Part shown: one piece after another, positions 14,561-23,560 of the stretch
Layout of the letters: each line of letters begins with the position of its first letter
Numbering within the stretch: position 1 is the stretch's first letter
Assembly (NCBI RefSeq): GCF_003173755.1
Contig: NZ_CP029553.1
Span: 5,956,001-6,020,000, forward strand
Source of the DNA: Methylobacterium terrae
GTDB taxonomy: Bacteria > Pseudomonadota > Alphaproteobacteria > Rhizobiales > Beijerinckiaceae
Direction: 5' to 3'
Length of the DNA: 64,000 bases
The notes under the pieces: generated by a model
Database searches by the model: none
The model's input: the letters and a program-made list of their open reading frames with translations, nothing else
What the model was told of the DNA's origin: nothing
Made by a program: the position numbers and the translations under genes

Positions 14561-15059
14561 TGCGCGGGTGCCCGAGATGGGACCTGTCGAGCCGCGGCTG
14601 GACGTCGAAGCCGATACTTCGCCAACCCTCCGGACTTCGACGCAAGGCGTGGGCCCGGATAGACCGACCGCTGAGGTTGAAGGAGAGAGCGGCGCGCCCG
14701 TCGCATCGGTCCACGCCTCGGGGTTCATGGGTCCGGGTTCCGTTGCGGGGCCCCGGGGTGACCGTGAGGGGCGGCAGGGCCGCCGGTGATCGAGCGGGCT
14801 CCGGCTCCACTCTCCTCCTGCGAGGCAATCCCCCGAGCTGTCATTCGGCTCCCGATATTCTTAACAGAAATATTCGGTTCTTATCAATACTGATGCCCGT
14901 TTGCGCAGTATTATACTTCAGGTTGTGCCCGGATAGGCGCATAAGTCCGCAGCGGCATCCAAGTCATAATCCGTTATCCGCGACCGATTACCGGATATAA
15001 AGGCGCCTACCCCAGGGTCGGACCTGCAACAACCGGATGATGGATTGCGACCCATAGCC
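14561..15059. other. Gene-free gap with AT-rich promoter region
   Basis: No convincing gene. The first 280 bases keep normal GC. From about 14845 to 15000 GC drops sharply and contains several -10-like hexamers (for example TATACT at 14912-14917) and small dyads. It is probably the control region of the SCO-like/copper oxidase pair. No tRNA cloverleaf could be folded. Confidence 0.4.
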
Positions 15060-15707
15060 ATGTGGCCGGCCCTGAAGACCCTCGCGGCGCTCGCGATCAG
15101 CCTGCCCCTCTGGGGCATCCCCAGTACCGCCTCGGTCGAGCCGGGGACGACCCCTGCGGGCACGGAGCGGAGCGACCTCGATACCCTGCTCCGGCCGTCG
15201 GGCGGACCGTGGCGGATCGACCAGCGCGGCACGGCCCTGCGCCCGGCGGATCTGCGCGACCGGGTCGCCGTGGTGGCGTTCGTGGCCTCCGATTGCTCGA
15301 TCGTCTGCGTCACCCGCCTCCTCGACCTCGACCGGGTCGCCGGGGCCCTGCCGGAACCGGTCCGCGACCGCGCGGTGTTCCTCGCCGTCTCCCTCGACGA
15401 TGCCACGGGCGGGGCGGCGAAGCTCCGTGCCTTCGCCGAGGGCACCGTGGGAGCCGGATCGCGGCTCCGCTTCCTCGCCGGCGACGCGGCCTGGACCGCG
15501 GCGATCGCCGCGATGCTGCGCTACCCGGCGGCCTCGCTGCCAGAGCCCCCGCCGCAGGTCATGCTGTTCGACCGGCGCGGCGGGATCGCGATGACCTATG
15601 GGGGCGACCCGCTCGATCGCCCGCGGCTCGCGGGCGACATCGCCCTCCTCGACACCTTCGCGCAGGGGCTCGACTCGGGCCCGGCGCGAGACCCCCACGC
15701 CCTCTGA
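15060..15707 (+). CDS. SCO1/SenC-like thioredoxin-fold protein
   Basis: Exported protein of 215 aa: signal sequence at residues 1-24 (LAALAISLPLWGIPSTAS), then a thioredoxin-like fold. It has a CxxxC pair at Cys79 and Cys83 (SDCSIVCVTRLL), placed as in SCO copper chaperones. The histidine that completes the copper site in SCO1 is not visible; the equivalent loop reads PEPPPQVMLF, and the only late His is three residues from the end. It is thus either a divergent copper chaperone or a thiol-disulfide reductase. The copper radical oxidase gene starts 23 bases downstream, so an operon is likely. Start at ATG 15060; the in-frame TTG at 15045 is less likely. Confidence 0.75.
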   Translation: MWPALKTLAALAISLPLWGIPSTASVEPGTTPAGTERSDLDTLLRPSGGPWRIDQRGTALRPADLRDRVAVVAFVASDCSIVCVTRLLDLDRVAGALPEPVRDRAVFLAVSLDDATGGAAKLRAFAEGTVGAGSRLRFLAGDAAWTAAIAAMLRYPAASLPEPPPQVMLFDRRGGIAMTYGGDPLDRPRLAGDIALLDTFAQGLDSGPARDPHAL

Positions 15708-15730
15708 CCCACAACCGAAAGCCTCTCCCG

Positions 15731-18703
15731 ATGACCGCTCCGACCGAGGCCGGGCGCCGCGCGCGCCTGCGCGACGCCGCGTTCCTCTCCGCCACCATCC
15801 TGGGGGCGGGCCTGCTCTCCCCGGCCCACGCCGCGCAGTTCGGCGTCGTGGTGAACCAGGTCGCCGACCCGGTGCTGGGGAGCGTGCCGCTCCCCGACAC
15901 CGCCCCCACGATGGGCGTGTTCTCGGGCGTGCAGAACTGGCCGATGAACGCCATCACCCTCGGCCTCCTGCCGAGCGGCAAGGTCGCGTCCTACGGGACC
16001 CCGGGCGGCAACCCCGGCACCCAGGACGGCCGCACCTTCGACATCTGGGATCCCAGCCAGGGCATCGCCGGCGGCCACGTCATGCTGCCGGGGGTGGCGG
16101 GCGTGAACAGCTTCTGCGCCGCGCAGGCCTTCCGGACCGACGGCTCGCTGTTCATCGCCGGCGGGATCTTCGACAACGGCAACGACAAGGGCAGCGTGCT
16201 GCTCAACAACACCGGCACCGGCGTCGGCGCGATCGGCGCCAAGCTCGCCAACGACCGCTACTACTCGAGCATGCTGACGCTGCCCAACGGCCAGCAGCTC
16301 ATCATGGGCGGCTCCTACCCCTACCAGGGCGGCTGGAACGACCCGCAGGGCAGCATCGACAAGGGCCTGATGACCGGGATGACCCCGGAGATCTACGACG
16401 GCACCCGGTGGAAGAGCCTGTTCGGCGCCAAGAGCCGCGACGCGTTCGGGCCCGACAACAACAGGTGGTGGTATCCCCGCGCCTGGATCGCCCCGAACGG
16501 CAAGGTGTTCGGCATCACCTCCGAGAAGATGTGGTTCCTCGATCCGACCGGCAACGGCTCGGTCCAGGTCATGAACTTCAAGGAGCCGCAGCGCAACGCC
16601 GGTTCCGCCACCGACGCGCCGAATGTCGGCCCGGTCTCGACCGCGGCGATGTTCGAGACCGGCCGGATCCTGCAGGTCGGCGGCAACAGCTACGACAACG
16701 GGTCCGGCTTCCTGTCGAGCAGCCGCGCCACGGTGATCGACATCAACGGCGGCGCGCCGGTGGTGACCGACACCGCGCCGATGAGCGTCGGCCGCGCCTG
16801 GGCCAACGCCACGGTCCTGCCGACCGGCCAGGTCGCCGTCACCGGCGGCAGCAAGTGGAACGACCGCGGCGACGGCGACACCGTGCTGCAATCGGAGATC
16901 TGGGACCCGAGGACCGGCCGCTGGTCGCTCGGTGCCTCCGGCGGGGTCTATCGCGGCTACCACTCGACCGCGATCCTGATGCAGAACGGCGCCCTGCTGC
17001 TCGCCGGCGGCGGCGCGCCCGGCCCGGTGGCGAACCAGAACGCCGAGGTCTTCTACCCGCCCTACCTGTTCACCACCGTCAACGGGAAGACGGCGCTGGC
17101 GCCCCGCCCGCAGATCGTCAGCCTCTCGACCGCGCAGGCCCAGTACGGCCAGGCGTTCAAGGTCGAGCTCACCTCGCAGAACGGCCTGTCTCAGGTGGTG
17201 CTGATCGGCCTGAGCACGGTCACGCACAGCTTCAACTCGGGCCAGCGCCGCATCGTCGCCGCCTTCACCCAGGCCGGCAACGCCGTGACGGTGCAGGCGC
17301 CGGCCAGCGCCAACATCGCGCCCCCCGGCTACTACCAGATCGTCGCCATCGACCAGAAGGGCGTGCCCTCGCCCGGCGTGATCGTCGCGCTGGGGGCCGG
17401 CGTCGCGGCGCCGAGCCAGGTGGCGGCCCCGGGCGTGATCGCCTCCAACGGCGGGCAGACCGGCGGCGGCACCGGTGGCACGGCCGCCGGCGGCACGGGC
17501 GGGGGCACCGGCGGCACGGGCGGCGGGACGGGCACGACCGTCGCCACCGGCGCGGCCATGAGCCTGCAGGCGAGCAACTTCACCACGAGCTACCTCACCA
17601 ACGTCGGCGGCACGGCGCGCCTCGTCACGCCGGCCAACGCCGCCGACAAGCAGCAGGCGACCTTCCGGATGGTCGCGGGCCTCGCCGGTTCGGGCGTGTC
17701 GTTCCAGGCGAGCACCAACGCCAACCAGTACCTGCGCCACCAGAACTTCCAGATCTGGCAGCAGCCCAACGACGGCGGCGACGGCTTCAAGCGCGGCGCG
17801 ACCTTCACGCCGCGCGCGGCGCTCGCCGGCACCTGCGGCTGCAACACCGGCACCTGCTCGTCCTACGAGTCGATCGACTGGCCCGGCTACTACGTCCGGC
17901 ACCAGAACTTCAGCTTCTCCATCGCGAAGCCGGATGGCGGCGCCAGCTACAACCAGGACGCCTCGTTCTGCACCGCGCCGCCGGCCGACGGCTCGGCCGC
18001 CGGTACGGGGGGCGGAACCGGCCTTCCGGCCGCGAACGGCCAGTGGACGCAGATCGGCGCGACCGCGTCCCGCGTCTCGATCGGGGCGGACGGGACCCTC
18101 GTCACCCTCAACGCCGACGCCAGGACGGCCTGGCGCTACGTGGGCGACAACAACTGGACGCAGCTGCCCGGCGCCTTCACCGACATCGCCGTCATCGGCG
18201 CCACCAGCATGTACGGCATCGGCACCGACACCAACGTCTACCGCTTCGACGGCCAGAACTGGACCATGGTCGGCACCAACGCGAAGTCCATCGCCGCCGC
18301 GGACGGCACGGTCCTCGTCACCAACGGCAACAACGACATCTGGCTCAAAGCCGCGGACGACAACACGAACGCCTGGCGACAGCTTCCCGGCAAGGCGCTC
18401 AGGGTCGCGGTCATGAACCGCAACAGCCTCTGGCACGTCGGCATCGACAACGGCGTCTACCGCGGCGACCAAGGCGGCAACTGGATCGCGGTCGGGAACG
18501 ACGCGGCCGAGATCGCGACCTCGCCCGACGGCAGCGTCGTGGTGACGAACACCGCCAGCAAGCTGATGTGGCGCAGGACCGGCGACAACGCGGCCGGGAA
18601 CTGGACGCTCGTCGACCCGAACTTCAAGGCGAATGCCCTGACGGTCCCGAACGCCCAGCGGGCGATCGTCGTCGGCGCCGACCGCAACATCTACCGCTGG
18701 TAG
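15731..18703 (+). CDS. Secreted copper radical oxidase (galactose/glyoxal oxidase-like) with AbfB and tectonin domains
   Basis: Extracellular oxidase of 990 aa that should convert an alcohol or aldehyde plus oxygen to aldehyde or acid plus hydrogen peroxide. Order: signal peptide to about residue 34 (AHA); kelch-like propeller; DUF1929 C-terminal oxidase domain to about 555. All expected copper and cofactor residues align: Cys129 (SFCAAQAF) and Tyr178 (RYYSS) for the thioether, Tyr410-His411 (GYHSTAIL) and His499 (TVTHSFNSGQRR). A Gly/Thr linker (about 577-602) leads to an AbfB-like trefoil (about 611-755; YLRHQNFQIW, YYVRHQNFSF), then five or so tectonin-type WTQ/W-rich repeats to the end. 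AbfB and tectonin modules bind glycans, suggesting targeting to plant or microbial polysaccharide. The substrate cannot be read from sequence. Confidence 0.9.
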   Translation: MTAPTEAGRRARLRDAAFLSATILGAGLLSPAHAAQFGVVVNQVADPVLGSVPLPDTAPTMGVFSGVQNWPMNAITLGLLPSGKVASYGTPGGNPGTQDGRTFDIWDPSQGIAGGHVMLPGVAGVNSFCAAQAFRTDGSLFIAGGIFDNGNDKGSVLLNNTGTGVGAIGAKLANDRYYSSMLTLPNGQQLIMGGSYPYQGGWNDPQGSIDKGLMTGMTPEIYDGTRWKSLFGAKSRDAFGPDNNRWWYPRAWIAPNGKVFGITSEKMWFLDPTGNGSVQVMNFKEPQRNAGSATDAPNVGPVSTAAMFETGRILQVGGNSYDNGSGFLSSSRATVIDINGGAPVVTDTAPMSVGRAWANATVLPTGQVAVTGGSKWNDRGDGDTVLQSEIWDPRTGRWSLGASGGVYRGYHSTAILMQNGALLLAGGGAPGPVANQNAEVFYPPYLFTTVNGKTALAPRPQIVSLSTAQAQYGQAFKVELTSQNGLSQVVLIGLSTVTHSFNSGQRRIVAAFTQAGNAVTVQAPASANIAPPGYYQIVAIDQKGVPSPGVIVALGAGVAAPSQVAAPGVIASNGGQTGGGTGGTAAGGTGGGTGGTGGGTGTTVATGAAMSLQASNFTTSYLTNVGGTARLVTPANAADKQQATFRMVAGLAGSGVSFQASTNANQYLRHQNFQIWQQPNDGGDGFKRGATFTPRAALAGTCGCNTGTCSSYESIDWPGYYVRHQNFSFSIAKPDGGASYNQDASFCTAPPADGSAAGTGGGTGLPAANGQWTQIGATASRVSIGADGTLVTLNADARTAWRYVGDNNWTQLPGAFTDIAVIGATSMYGIGTDTNVYRFDGQNWTMVGTNAKSIAAADGTVLVTNGNNDIWLKAADDNTNAWRQLPGKALRVAVMNRNSLWHVGIDNGVYRGDQGGNWIAVGNDAAEIATSPDGSVVVTNTASKLMWRRTGDNAAGNWTLVDPNFKANALTVPNAQRAIVVGADRNIYRW
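17459..17537 (+). repeat. Gly/Thr-rich linker repeats in the copper oxidase gene
   Basis: Imperfect tandem units of GGCACCGGCGGC type encode a flexible TGGGTGG linker joining the oxidase core to the AbfB-like domain. The number of units may vary between strains. Confidence 0.6.
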
Positions 18704-21682: not shown

Positions 21683-23560
21683 TCACCCGTCCAGGGCGGT
21701 CCGGTCCACCTCCGTCGTGACCGTGCCGAGGATGCGGGCGCGGGCGTGCTCCAGGGTCTCGCAGGCCTCCGTCAGGGTGCGCAGCGGGGTGCGGCCCCAC
21801 TCGGTCATCAGCACCACGCCGTCGAGCAGCGGCGCGAGCGCCACGACCGCGGCCGAGCGGCCGACCGGCGGCAGGTCGACGATCACCACGTCGTAGGCCT
21901 CGGTGAGGCTGGCGAGCAGCGCCTCCATGGCGGGCGAGGCGAGCCAGTGCGGCGAGGGCAGCGCCTCGTGCGCCAGGGGGAGCACGTCGCATCCCTCCGC
22001 GAGCGCCGTGACGTGGGGGCGCCAGCGCTCGGCCGCCGCGGTCCCGAAGCCGCGCAGCTCCGCCACGATCCCCTCCCCGGCCTCGGGGTTGCGCAGGACC
22101 GGGTCGGCGGCGTCCGCATCGACGACGAGGACGCGGGCGCCCGACGCGGCGTAGAGCCGGGCGAGCTCGATCGCCGCGAGCGCCTTGGTGCGCCCGCAGG
22201 TGCGCCCCGCCGCCGTGAGGCCGATGGTGCGCAGCGGCGCGGCGTGGCTCGCCGCGGCGAGGGAGAGCCGGGTCCATTGCAGCCCCTCGGCGAGCCCGGC
22301 GCAGAGCCGCGCCTCGTCGGTCAGGCCGCGGCGGCGGGTGCTCGGCCGGGCCGGGATCCAGCCGAGGCAGTCCCGCCCGGTCGCGGCCCGGACCTGGCGC
22401 CGCGAGCGGGCGCGCCCGTCGAGCAGGAGGCCGGCGAGGCCGGCGGCGACGAACAGACCGGCCCCGGCCGCCGCACCGGCCGGCATCGTCAGCCGCAGGC
22501 CCGCATTGGAGCGGAACAGCGGCCGGGTCGCCGCGGTGATGACCCGGGAATCGGCGATCGGGGCGCTCTGGCGCTGCACCGCCTCGGCGAGCACCACGAG
22601 CAGGCTCTCGTAGACCTTGCGCGAGGTCTCGGCGGCGGATTCGAGCTCCTCGAGGGTGCCGGGCTCGTCGTCGGCGGGCGCGCGCGGGACGATCTGCGCG
22701 CCCGCGCTCGCCACCGGACCGTCGGCATCGTCGCGCCGGCCGCGCCGGATGCGATAGTTGTGCGTGGCGCGGAACTCCTGCACGGCGCGGATCGCCGCGT
22801 TCATCTGGGTCCGGAAGCGGTCGACGCGCTCGTTGAGCCAGTCGGTGGCGTAGCGCGAGGCCTCGATCCGGGCCTCCATCTTCTCGCGCAGGAACTGCTC
22901 GACCACCGCGTTGACGATGTCGGCCGCCTTCTGGGGGTCGCGGGCCGCGAAGGTGATGTCGAGGGCGTAGGCGAGGCCGGAGCGGCGCACGTCGAGCCGG
23001 GCCGCGAAGGTGTTGAGGAGGTGCCGCTCCGCCTCGAGGCCGGAATCGGCCGTCTCGCCCTCGCCCCGGCCGGTCGCGCCCTTGAACGCCGCGCGGGCGG
23101 TCTCGACGAGGCCGCCCAGGCGCTCCTGCGCGGCGACCACGAAGGCCGGCAGCCGGCTCGCGAGCCGGGCCCCGCCCCCGCCCCCGCCGAATTCCGGATC
23201 GCCCCGCAGCCCGAGCCGGTCGATCACCATCCGGGCGACCTTCTCGGAGCGCAGGATCGCGATCTGGTTGGCGATCTGGCCGGTATCGATGGCGAAGCGC
23301 GCGTCGCCGCCGGGCTCGGCGAAGAGCGGCGGCATCTTGGAATCGATCACGAGCTGCGCCCGGGCGGTGTAGACCGGCGCTGCCGTGAGCGCGTAGAGGG
23401 CGCCGAGCGCCGCCCCCGCGAGGGCGCAGGCGAGGATGCGGGCACGGCGGCGGCGCAGGAACGCGAGGATGTCGCGGACCTCGAGCGTGCGGGTCTCGGG
23501 CGGGTCGTCCCGCAGGCGCGGGGCCAGGGACGGGTCGGTCCAGATCGGATTGTTCAGCAA
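21683..23560 (-). CDS. Wzz/GumC-type polysaccharide co-polymerase with degenerate BY-kinase domain
   Basis: Inner-membrane protein of 625 aa for exopolysaccharide chain length and export. Residues about 25-60 carry the first membrane helix (ILACALAGAALGALYALTA), then a periplasmic Wzz domain with coiled coil (to about 320), a second membrane helix near 370-390, and a C-terminal BY-kinase fold. Walker A' is VLVVDADAADPVL and Walker B VVIVDLPPV, but Walker A reads GRTCGRTK, with Arg where the ATP-binding Lys belongs, and there is no C-terminal tyrosine cluster. It may be a pseudokinase. The start appears to be the TTG at 23560. A hexapeptide transferase gene is divergent at 24018; no glycosyltransferase cluster is in the window. 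Confidence 0.85.
   Translation of the reverse strand: MLNNPIWTDPSLAPRLRDDPPETRTLEVRDILAFLRRRRARILACALAGAALGALYALTAAPVYTARAQLVIDSKMPPLFAEPGGDARFAIDTGQIANQIAILRSEKVARMVIDRLGLRGDPEFGGGGGGARLASRLPAFVVAAQERLGGLVETARAAFKGATGRGEGETADSGLEAERHLLNTFAARLDVRRSGLAYALDITFAARDPQKAADIVNAVVEQFLREKMEARIEASRYATDWLNERVDRFRTQMNAAIRAVQEFRATHNYRIRRGRRDDADGPVASAGAQIVPRAPADDEPGTLEELESAAETSRKVYESLLVVLAEAVQRQSAPIADSRVITAATRPLFRSNAGLRLTMPAGAAAGAGLFVAAGLAGLLLDGRARSRRQVRAATGRDCLGWIPARPSTRRRGLTDEARLCAGLAEGLQWTRLSLAAASHAAPLRTIGLTAAGRTCGRTKALAAIELARLYAASGARVLVVDADAADPVLRNPEAGEGIVAELRGFGTAAAERWRPHVTALAEGCDVLPLAHEALPSPHWLASPAMEALLASLTEAYDVVIVDLPPVGRSAAVVALAPLLDGVVLMTEWGRTPLRTLTEACETLEHARARILGTVTTEVDRTALDG

Follow-up and report, generated by a model that had tools for sequence, protein, structure and literature searches.

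The closest described system to the locus reported here is that of Streptomyces lividans, in which sco and dtpA mutations disturb the maturation of GlxA, a copper radical oxidase with a Cys-Tyr cofactor, when copper is scarce (PMC4736821). The Sco protein in question is described as a copper chaperone and is encoded away from glxA; in Frankia, sco lies beside the oxidase cluster, and in certain Burkholderia it co-occurs with Gox genes (PMC4736821), so that the bare pairing of a SCO gene with such an oxidase is not new. SCO proteins hold Cu(I) by two cysteines and a distal histidine, and for cytochrome oxidase both copper handover and thiol reduction by SCO are argued, one model having Sco1 reduce the cysteines of the client and PCuAC supply the copper (PMC7558416). 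Here, we analyze a SCO-like gene and a galactose-oxidase-like gene, which adjoin each other in a stretch of 64,000 nucleotides of the Methylobacterium terrae genome (the window; 5.956-6.020 Mb of a 6.16-Mb genome in one contig). As in S. lividans, a predicted copper radical oxidase with a Cys-Tyr cofactor is accompanied by a SCO-type protein, but unlike Streptomyces Sco the window protein has lost the copper-binding histidine and its gene lies next to that of the oxidase. Within the genus, the sequences suggest that the oxidase belongs with one type II secretion system (T2SS), and we give an even chance to the overall reading that the pair is a small operon for a T2SS-exported radical copper oxidase and a SCO-type thiol maturation factor, here without the histidine.

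The oxidase and its histidine-less SCO-like partner

Both genes were confirmed as adjacent open reading frames on the plus strand, coding for a SCO-like protein of 215 aa and, after 23 bases, for an oxidase of 990 aa, which carries all cofactor and copper residues as the initial annotation had described (Table 1). The residues that define copper radical oxidases were taken from galactose oxidase, and the alignment places all AA5 cofactor and ligand residues in the window protein (C129, Y178, Y410, H411 and H499). The protein combines a kelch propeller with an E-set domain, the arrangement of AA5 copper radical oxidases: the E-set domain scores 82.6 bits against a cut-off of 25, and the propeller matches PDB structures with an E value of 1.6e-39, with Glyoxal_oxid_N and Kelch_6 scoring below their own cut-offs. 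It is not a GlxA equivalog, scoring 120.4 bits with NCBIfam model NF052501 against a cut-off of 800. Propeller, E-set domain, Cys-Tyr pair and Tyr-His-His ligands are shared with the fungal galactose and glyoxal oxidases (AA5), from which the window oxidase differs in being bacterial, in its C-terminal AbfB and tectonin domains and in the T2SS association of its genus. These C-terminal domains differ among the oxidases of relatives, and the arginine pair of a twin-arginine translocation (Tat) signal is present in the N-termini of some relatives and absent from others.

The oxidases that adjoin the histidine-less SCO form have exactly one cysteine in their catalytic region, namely that of the cofactor (26 of 26 genes at 25 loci, one gene being truncated by a contig end), while the number of cysteines in their C-terminal part ranges from 0 to 12 and is always even. 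The lone catalytic-region cysteine makes it plausible that it has to be guarded against wrong disulfides.

The SCO-like protein scores 25.4 bits with the Pfam profile SCO1-SenC (cut-off 22.8), has a thioredoxin fold and finds its best solved folds among SCO proteins. In an alignment of 55 of 65 proteins (P0028, P0033, P0037, P0039, P0057, P0058, P0059, P0062, P0064 and P0065 were left out), the CxxxC cysteines C79 and C83 are present in 55/55 relatives, as are P161, E162 and P163, followed by P164 in 54/55 and P165 in 50/55. The distal copper histidine, whose position was assigned from sequence alignment, is missing in all 55, and no other histidine is conserved. In a 43-row alignment, its column holds proline in the window protein and 29 other rows, a gap in one and histidine in 12, which include both other SCO proteins of the window's own genome. 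By this histidine, the protein departs from the canonical SCO1/SenC copper chaperones, among them ScoI of Bradyrhizobium japonicum, and shows EPPP instead. Since the place of the copper ligand reads LPEPPP, plain copper donation is unsupported, and the copper supply by Sco that the initial annotation had carried over from S. lividans founders on this third ligand. As judged from sequence, a thiol-redox role of the SCO-like protein is at least as likely. The thioredoxin fold and the cysteine pair are shared with thiol-disulfide reductases of the TlpA and ResA type, and B. japonicum TlpA reduces client cysteines ahead of copper loading (PMC7558416). A redox role has also been proposed for Arabidopsis HCC2, a SCO homologue without the copper histidine, which differs from the window protein in being mitochondrial and in lacking the cysteines too (PMC3971200).

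The initial annotation had asked whether the pair is kept across Methylobacterium, which is indeed the case: when the SCO-like alignment was searched against one genome per species, 17 of the 19 loci obtained had the oxidase directly 3' and in the same orientation, and the pair occurs in two different chromosomal settings. According to gene starts from a rough script caller, the intergenic gap to a methionine measures 25-35 bases in six of the eight relatives in which it could be determined, and 67 and 127 bases in the remaining two. A mere chance neighborhood is ruled out by this conservation. The two loci without a following oxidase belong to strains J-076 and B4. The single oxidase of J-076 lies elsewhere in the genome, is frame-broken and has a tyrosine at a copper-histidine place, and in the B4 genome no E-set oxidase was found. 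At the B4 locus (L082, 7001-8143), the SCO-like frame continues in frame into gspJ and gspD is truncated, which could reflect a decaying locus or a fusion protein. Among the 397 genomes of a family sample, 12 (the window's own included) have a member of the SCO-like clade (E < 1e-20), which is directly followed by the oxidase in nine.

Type II secretion genes and two forms of SCO partner

Across 111 species genomes of the genus, the oxidase was found in 41 and the cognate gspK in 39, with both in 36, the oxidase alone in 5, gspK alone in 3 and neither in 67 (Fisher p 2.9e-20, uncorrected for kinship). A distance of at most 16 kb separates gspK or gspD from 21 of the 53 oxidase genes, which are spread over 19 genomes. 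Many relatives have the pseudopilin genes gspH, I, J and K next to the pair, which M. aminovorans carries between gspD and gspHIJK, and Pfam confirms T2SSK and N_methyl genes beside the pair in relatives. The genome of the window encodes GspE, a secretin, T2SSG, GspH and T2SSK at 4.62-4.63 Mb according to Pfam. Among 27 probed genomes in which the SCO-like gene or the oxidase is present, 26 gave a strong gspK match (E < 1e-65) and the remaining one, G054, a weak match (4.8e-5). Profile PF03934 proved a poor T2SS probe, its match in the own genome lying away from gspK, and the GspK protein was used instead. As not all first-look candidates were scored in the genome searches (at most 7, 6 or 21, depending on the search), misses are possible.

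The three genomes with gspK only also lack a whole secretin gene: no gspD was found in G786 and G801, the latter having gspK in two pieces as well, and only residues 32-198 of 790 in G252. In the 36 genomes with both genes, gspD is nearly whole and in one piece in 25 and consists of two pieces that overlap on a single contig in 4; in G813 and G817 the pieces lie on different contigs and a part is missing. Besides, a second, distantly similar secretin (36-39% identity across some 700 residues) was observed in G777, G239, G320, G780, G779, G797 and G811, in the last with one internal TGA, and perhaps belongs to a second T2SS-like system in several Methylobacterium genomes.

The histidine-less protein is not the only SCO form to accompany these oxidases. 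In a hand tally of the 53 oxidase matches of the genus, the histidine-less form lies beside 25 and a histidine-containing SCO within about 3.1 kb of 11, while 15 have neither (one of them a tandem second copy) and two were unplaced (G780:C1:566644, whose sequence was not fetched, and G755:C204, a contig-edge piece). The histidine form stands beside divergent oxidases in G778, G374, G239, G769, G777, G755, G789, G814, G779, G780 and G300, with T2SS genes near 8 of these 11 loci, the exceptions being G789, G779 and G780. The SCO-oxidase pairing therefore extends past the histidine-less clade. In the oxidase tree, from which pieces below 300 residues (G300b and G755b among them) were omitted, the histidine-less form goes with one clade, in which G054 is basal, and the histidine form with other parts. 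T2SS genes adjoin oxidases from three distinct regions of this tree; in two of these regions the partner is the histidine form and in one the histidine-less form. In the SCO tree, made without named duplicates and fragments, the histidine-less group has low support (0.675). The loss of the histidine may be a later change inside a working SCO-oxidase partnership. Of the unit that the initial annotation had proposed, the recurrence of SCO-type genes beside related oxidases stands, but its self-contained nature is not supported, given the tie to the T2SS in the genus. At two loci (L099 and L158), a divergent oxidase with 18 C-terminal cysteines lies between gspD and gspG with a histidine-type SCO nearby, and at three others (L107, L108 and L170) a divergent galactose-oxidase domain is part of very long open frames (1944-2418 aa), with neither SCO nor cognate T2SS genes within the fetched stretch.

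Outside the genus, G054 shows the order gspG, SCO-like gene, oxidase and gspD. Its locus (L152, 7129-13343) holds, in succession, a canonical SCO gene, a gene which we take by eye to be PCuAC-like, gspG, the histidine-less SCO-like gene and the oxidase, and thus both SCO forms in one cluster. The family sample contains 39 oxidase matches in 30 genomes, with a SCO gene within 5 kb of 15 and a T2SS gene in the fetched stretch of 7, and in a phylum sample of 349 genomes the oxidase was found in 10, 7 of which lie outside the family.

Proposed maturation and export of the oxidase and competing readings

From the conserved pair with its residues and fold, the lost histidine and the T2SS genes of the relatives, the following course can be proposed. 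The two genes would be transcribed together, and the oxidase would pass the inner membrane, fold in the periplasm, take up copper and form the Cys129-Tyr178 cofactor before crossing the outer membrane, already folded, via the T2SS encoded elsewhere in the genome. T2SS cargo is exported folded (PMC10128026), with which periplasmic maturation before export is consistent. Outside the cell, the AbfB and tectonin domains may bind the oxidase to glycans, where an active enzyme would oxidize alcohols and produce peroxide. The SCO-like protein would not be a standard Cys-Cys-His copper donor but would mature the oxidase through its CxxxC thiols, most likely by keeping Cys129 reduced until copper has bound; a SCO lineage that lacks the histidine and accompanies a client with one cysteine in its catalytic region fits such a reducing role. 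More tentatively, and at somewhat less than an even chance, we consider a dedicated line in which the T2SS is kept for one cargo and a SCO protein without copper binding has turned into a redox guard of the cofactor cysteine before export. If true, a SCO lineage with thiols but no histidine and with one such client would separate the two roles of SCO proteins directly, and the locus would provide an export route for bacterial radical copper oxidases as well as a cargo for an alphaproteobacterial T2SS. A T2SS is not expected in Gram-positive bacteria such as Streptomyces. In the open-licence literature we found no link of a copper radical oxidase to a T2SS and, looking to a small extent only, no account of a bacterial histidine-less SCO form; the excerpt of PMC11676643 is unrelated to a link between galactose oxidase and type II secretion, and those of PMC11267884 and PMC3543389 do not mention Methylobacterium.

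Several observations weigh against this reading. The thiol role draws on the missing histidine and the lone catalytic-region cysteine only. Strain B4 retains the SCO-like gene though no oxidase was found, and all three exceptions among the 12 family genomes argue against a strict dependence of the oxidase on its partner: G252 has the same locus as B4; G369 has an intact SCO-like gene followed by an oxidase remnant, and two oxidases elsewhere with a SCO-like remnant upstream; and in G224, a single-contig assembly, an oxidase whose active-site residues are all present has only a SCO-like remnant upstream, with a frame-broken SCO-like copy elsewhere. The partner may therefore not be strictly needed, or another SCO may substitute for it, and G224 and G369, whose clade oxidases have a complete set of active-site residues but no intact SCO-like gene adjacent, also speak against the self-contained unit of the initial annotation.

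On the side of secretion, the T2SS lies 1.34 Mb from the pair in the window's own genome, the species are not independent samples, and draft assemblies may hide genes. Five oxidase genomes of the genus are without cognate gspK, three of which have a very divergent long oxidase, and G789 carries a pair with the histidine-type SCO without cognate gspK or gspD. Among the genomes with oxidase and gspK, G764 has no gspD and G779 a partial one; in G330, G755 and G791 it is partial with matches near contig starts, and G300 and G780 each have two pieces, in frames that differ in length and are perhaps broken. Beyond the genus, T2SS genes lie by the oxidase in G054 only of the 14 oxidase-bearing family genomes, and a SCO gene in three (G054, G352 and G357). 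For the seven oxidase genomes outside the family, a SCO gene is nearby in one (G506), and with Methylobacterium proteins as probes no T2SS gene was found by the oxidase. As it is rare or unseen in these samples, the T2SS link is shown for the genus and G054 only.

The strongest competitor, which we nevertheless consider rather unlikely, is that the SCO-like protein still donates copper, with Cys79 and Cys83 binding Cu(I) and Glu162, another residue or the client providing the third ligand, and that it loads the oxidase in the way proposed for Sco and GlxA. The CxxxC motif is invariant, Glu162 is present in all 55 aligned relatives one residue ahead of the histidine position, and in Streptomyces sco mutants the disturbed GlxA maturation is rescued by copper (PMC4736821). 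Moreover, histidine-containing SCO proteins stand beside divergent oxidases of the genus, so the ancestral role may have been copper donation. Nevertheless, the Cu(I) site, Cys-Cys-His in canonical SCO proteins, lacks its distal histidine, and the glutamate is not universal in the wider clade, being replaced by Asp in L087, by Leu in L162 and by a gap in L094 and L166.

We regard as improbable a role of the SCO-like protein for the T2SS or for other exported proteins, with its adjacency to the oxidase being secondary. The SCO-like gene is next to gspHIJK or gspJK without an adjacent oxidase in J-076 and B4, J-076 has a whole gspD, and in G054 the gene lies between gspG and the oxidase. Both loci without an adjacent oxidase look like decay, however, since the T2SS of B4 appears broken (gspD residues 32-198 only) and so does the oxidase of J-076; besides, the 17 loci with the oxidase directly downstream include genomes with a distant T2SS. 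Equally improbable is an inherited gene order without function, reflecting clade history, which would account for a link that stems from one genus and G054, is uncorrected for kinship and is unseen in the few more distant genomes examined, but not readily for a pair that persists in two chromosomal settings, for T2SS-adjacent oxidases in three tree parts with both SCO forms, nor for three gspK genomes that lack the oxidase together with a whole secretin.

Genomic setting of the pair

The coordinates of the pair and its predicted functional elements are compiled in Table 1.

Table 1 Features of the SCO-like gene and the oxidase gene in the window.
Feature	Position	Strand	Basis
SCO-derived thioredoxin-fold gene, 215 aa, histidine-less (LPEPPP type)	15060..15707	+	Open reading frame; Pfam SCO1-SenC 25.4 bits; fold
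CxxxC motif, Cys79 and Cys83	15294..15308	+	Invariant in 55/55 aligned relatives
Pro161-Glu162-Pro163-Pro164-Pro165 replacing the SCO copper histidine	15540..15554	+	Alignment conservation; Pro in the canonical-His column
Intergenic gap, 23 bases	15708..15730	+	Sequence
Galactose-oxidase-like copper radical oxidase, 990 aa, hydrophobic signal-like N-terminus	15731..18703	+	
Cys129, predicted thioether cysteine, sole Cys of the catalytic region	16115..16117	+	
Tyr178, predicted thioether tyrosine	16262..16264	+	Conserved at the aligned position
Tyr410-His411, predicted copper ligands	16958..16963	+	
His499, predicted copper ligand	17225..17227	+	
GO-like E-set domain, residues 459-553	17105..17389	+	
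AbfB domain, residues 611-699, best of two passing stretches	17561..17827	+	
Tectonin domain, residues 781-971	18071..18643	+	

Upstream, the pair is flanked by genes for UvdE, a serine hydrolase and a methyltransferase, and downstream by genes for a ketopantoate reductase and a chloride channel; these neighbor genes are 90-95% identical and in the same order in Methylobacterium platani (L066). A link to exopolysaccharide genes, as for CslA-GlxA, was considered and rejected: a Wzz-like gene (21683-23560) lies 3 kb past the oxidase with panE and the chloride channel gene intervening, and no cellulose-synthase-like family was present among the 20 open reading frames scanned between 7601 and 41109, seven of which were without any family. 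A scan for sigma-70 promoters between 14500 and 18850 yielded none, and one terminator-like site was found in comparison with 1.6 expected. Upstream of the pair, about 500 bases (14561-15059) are without a kept gene, partly A+T-richer by eye and without a sigma-70-like match, and this stretch is a likely site for a putative control region.

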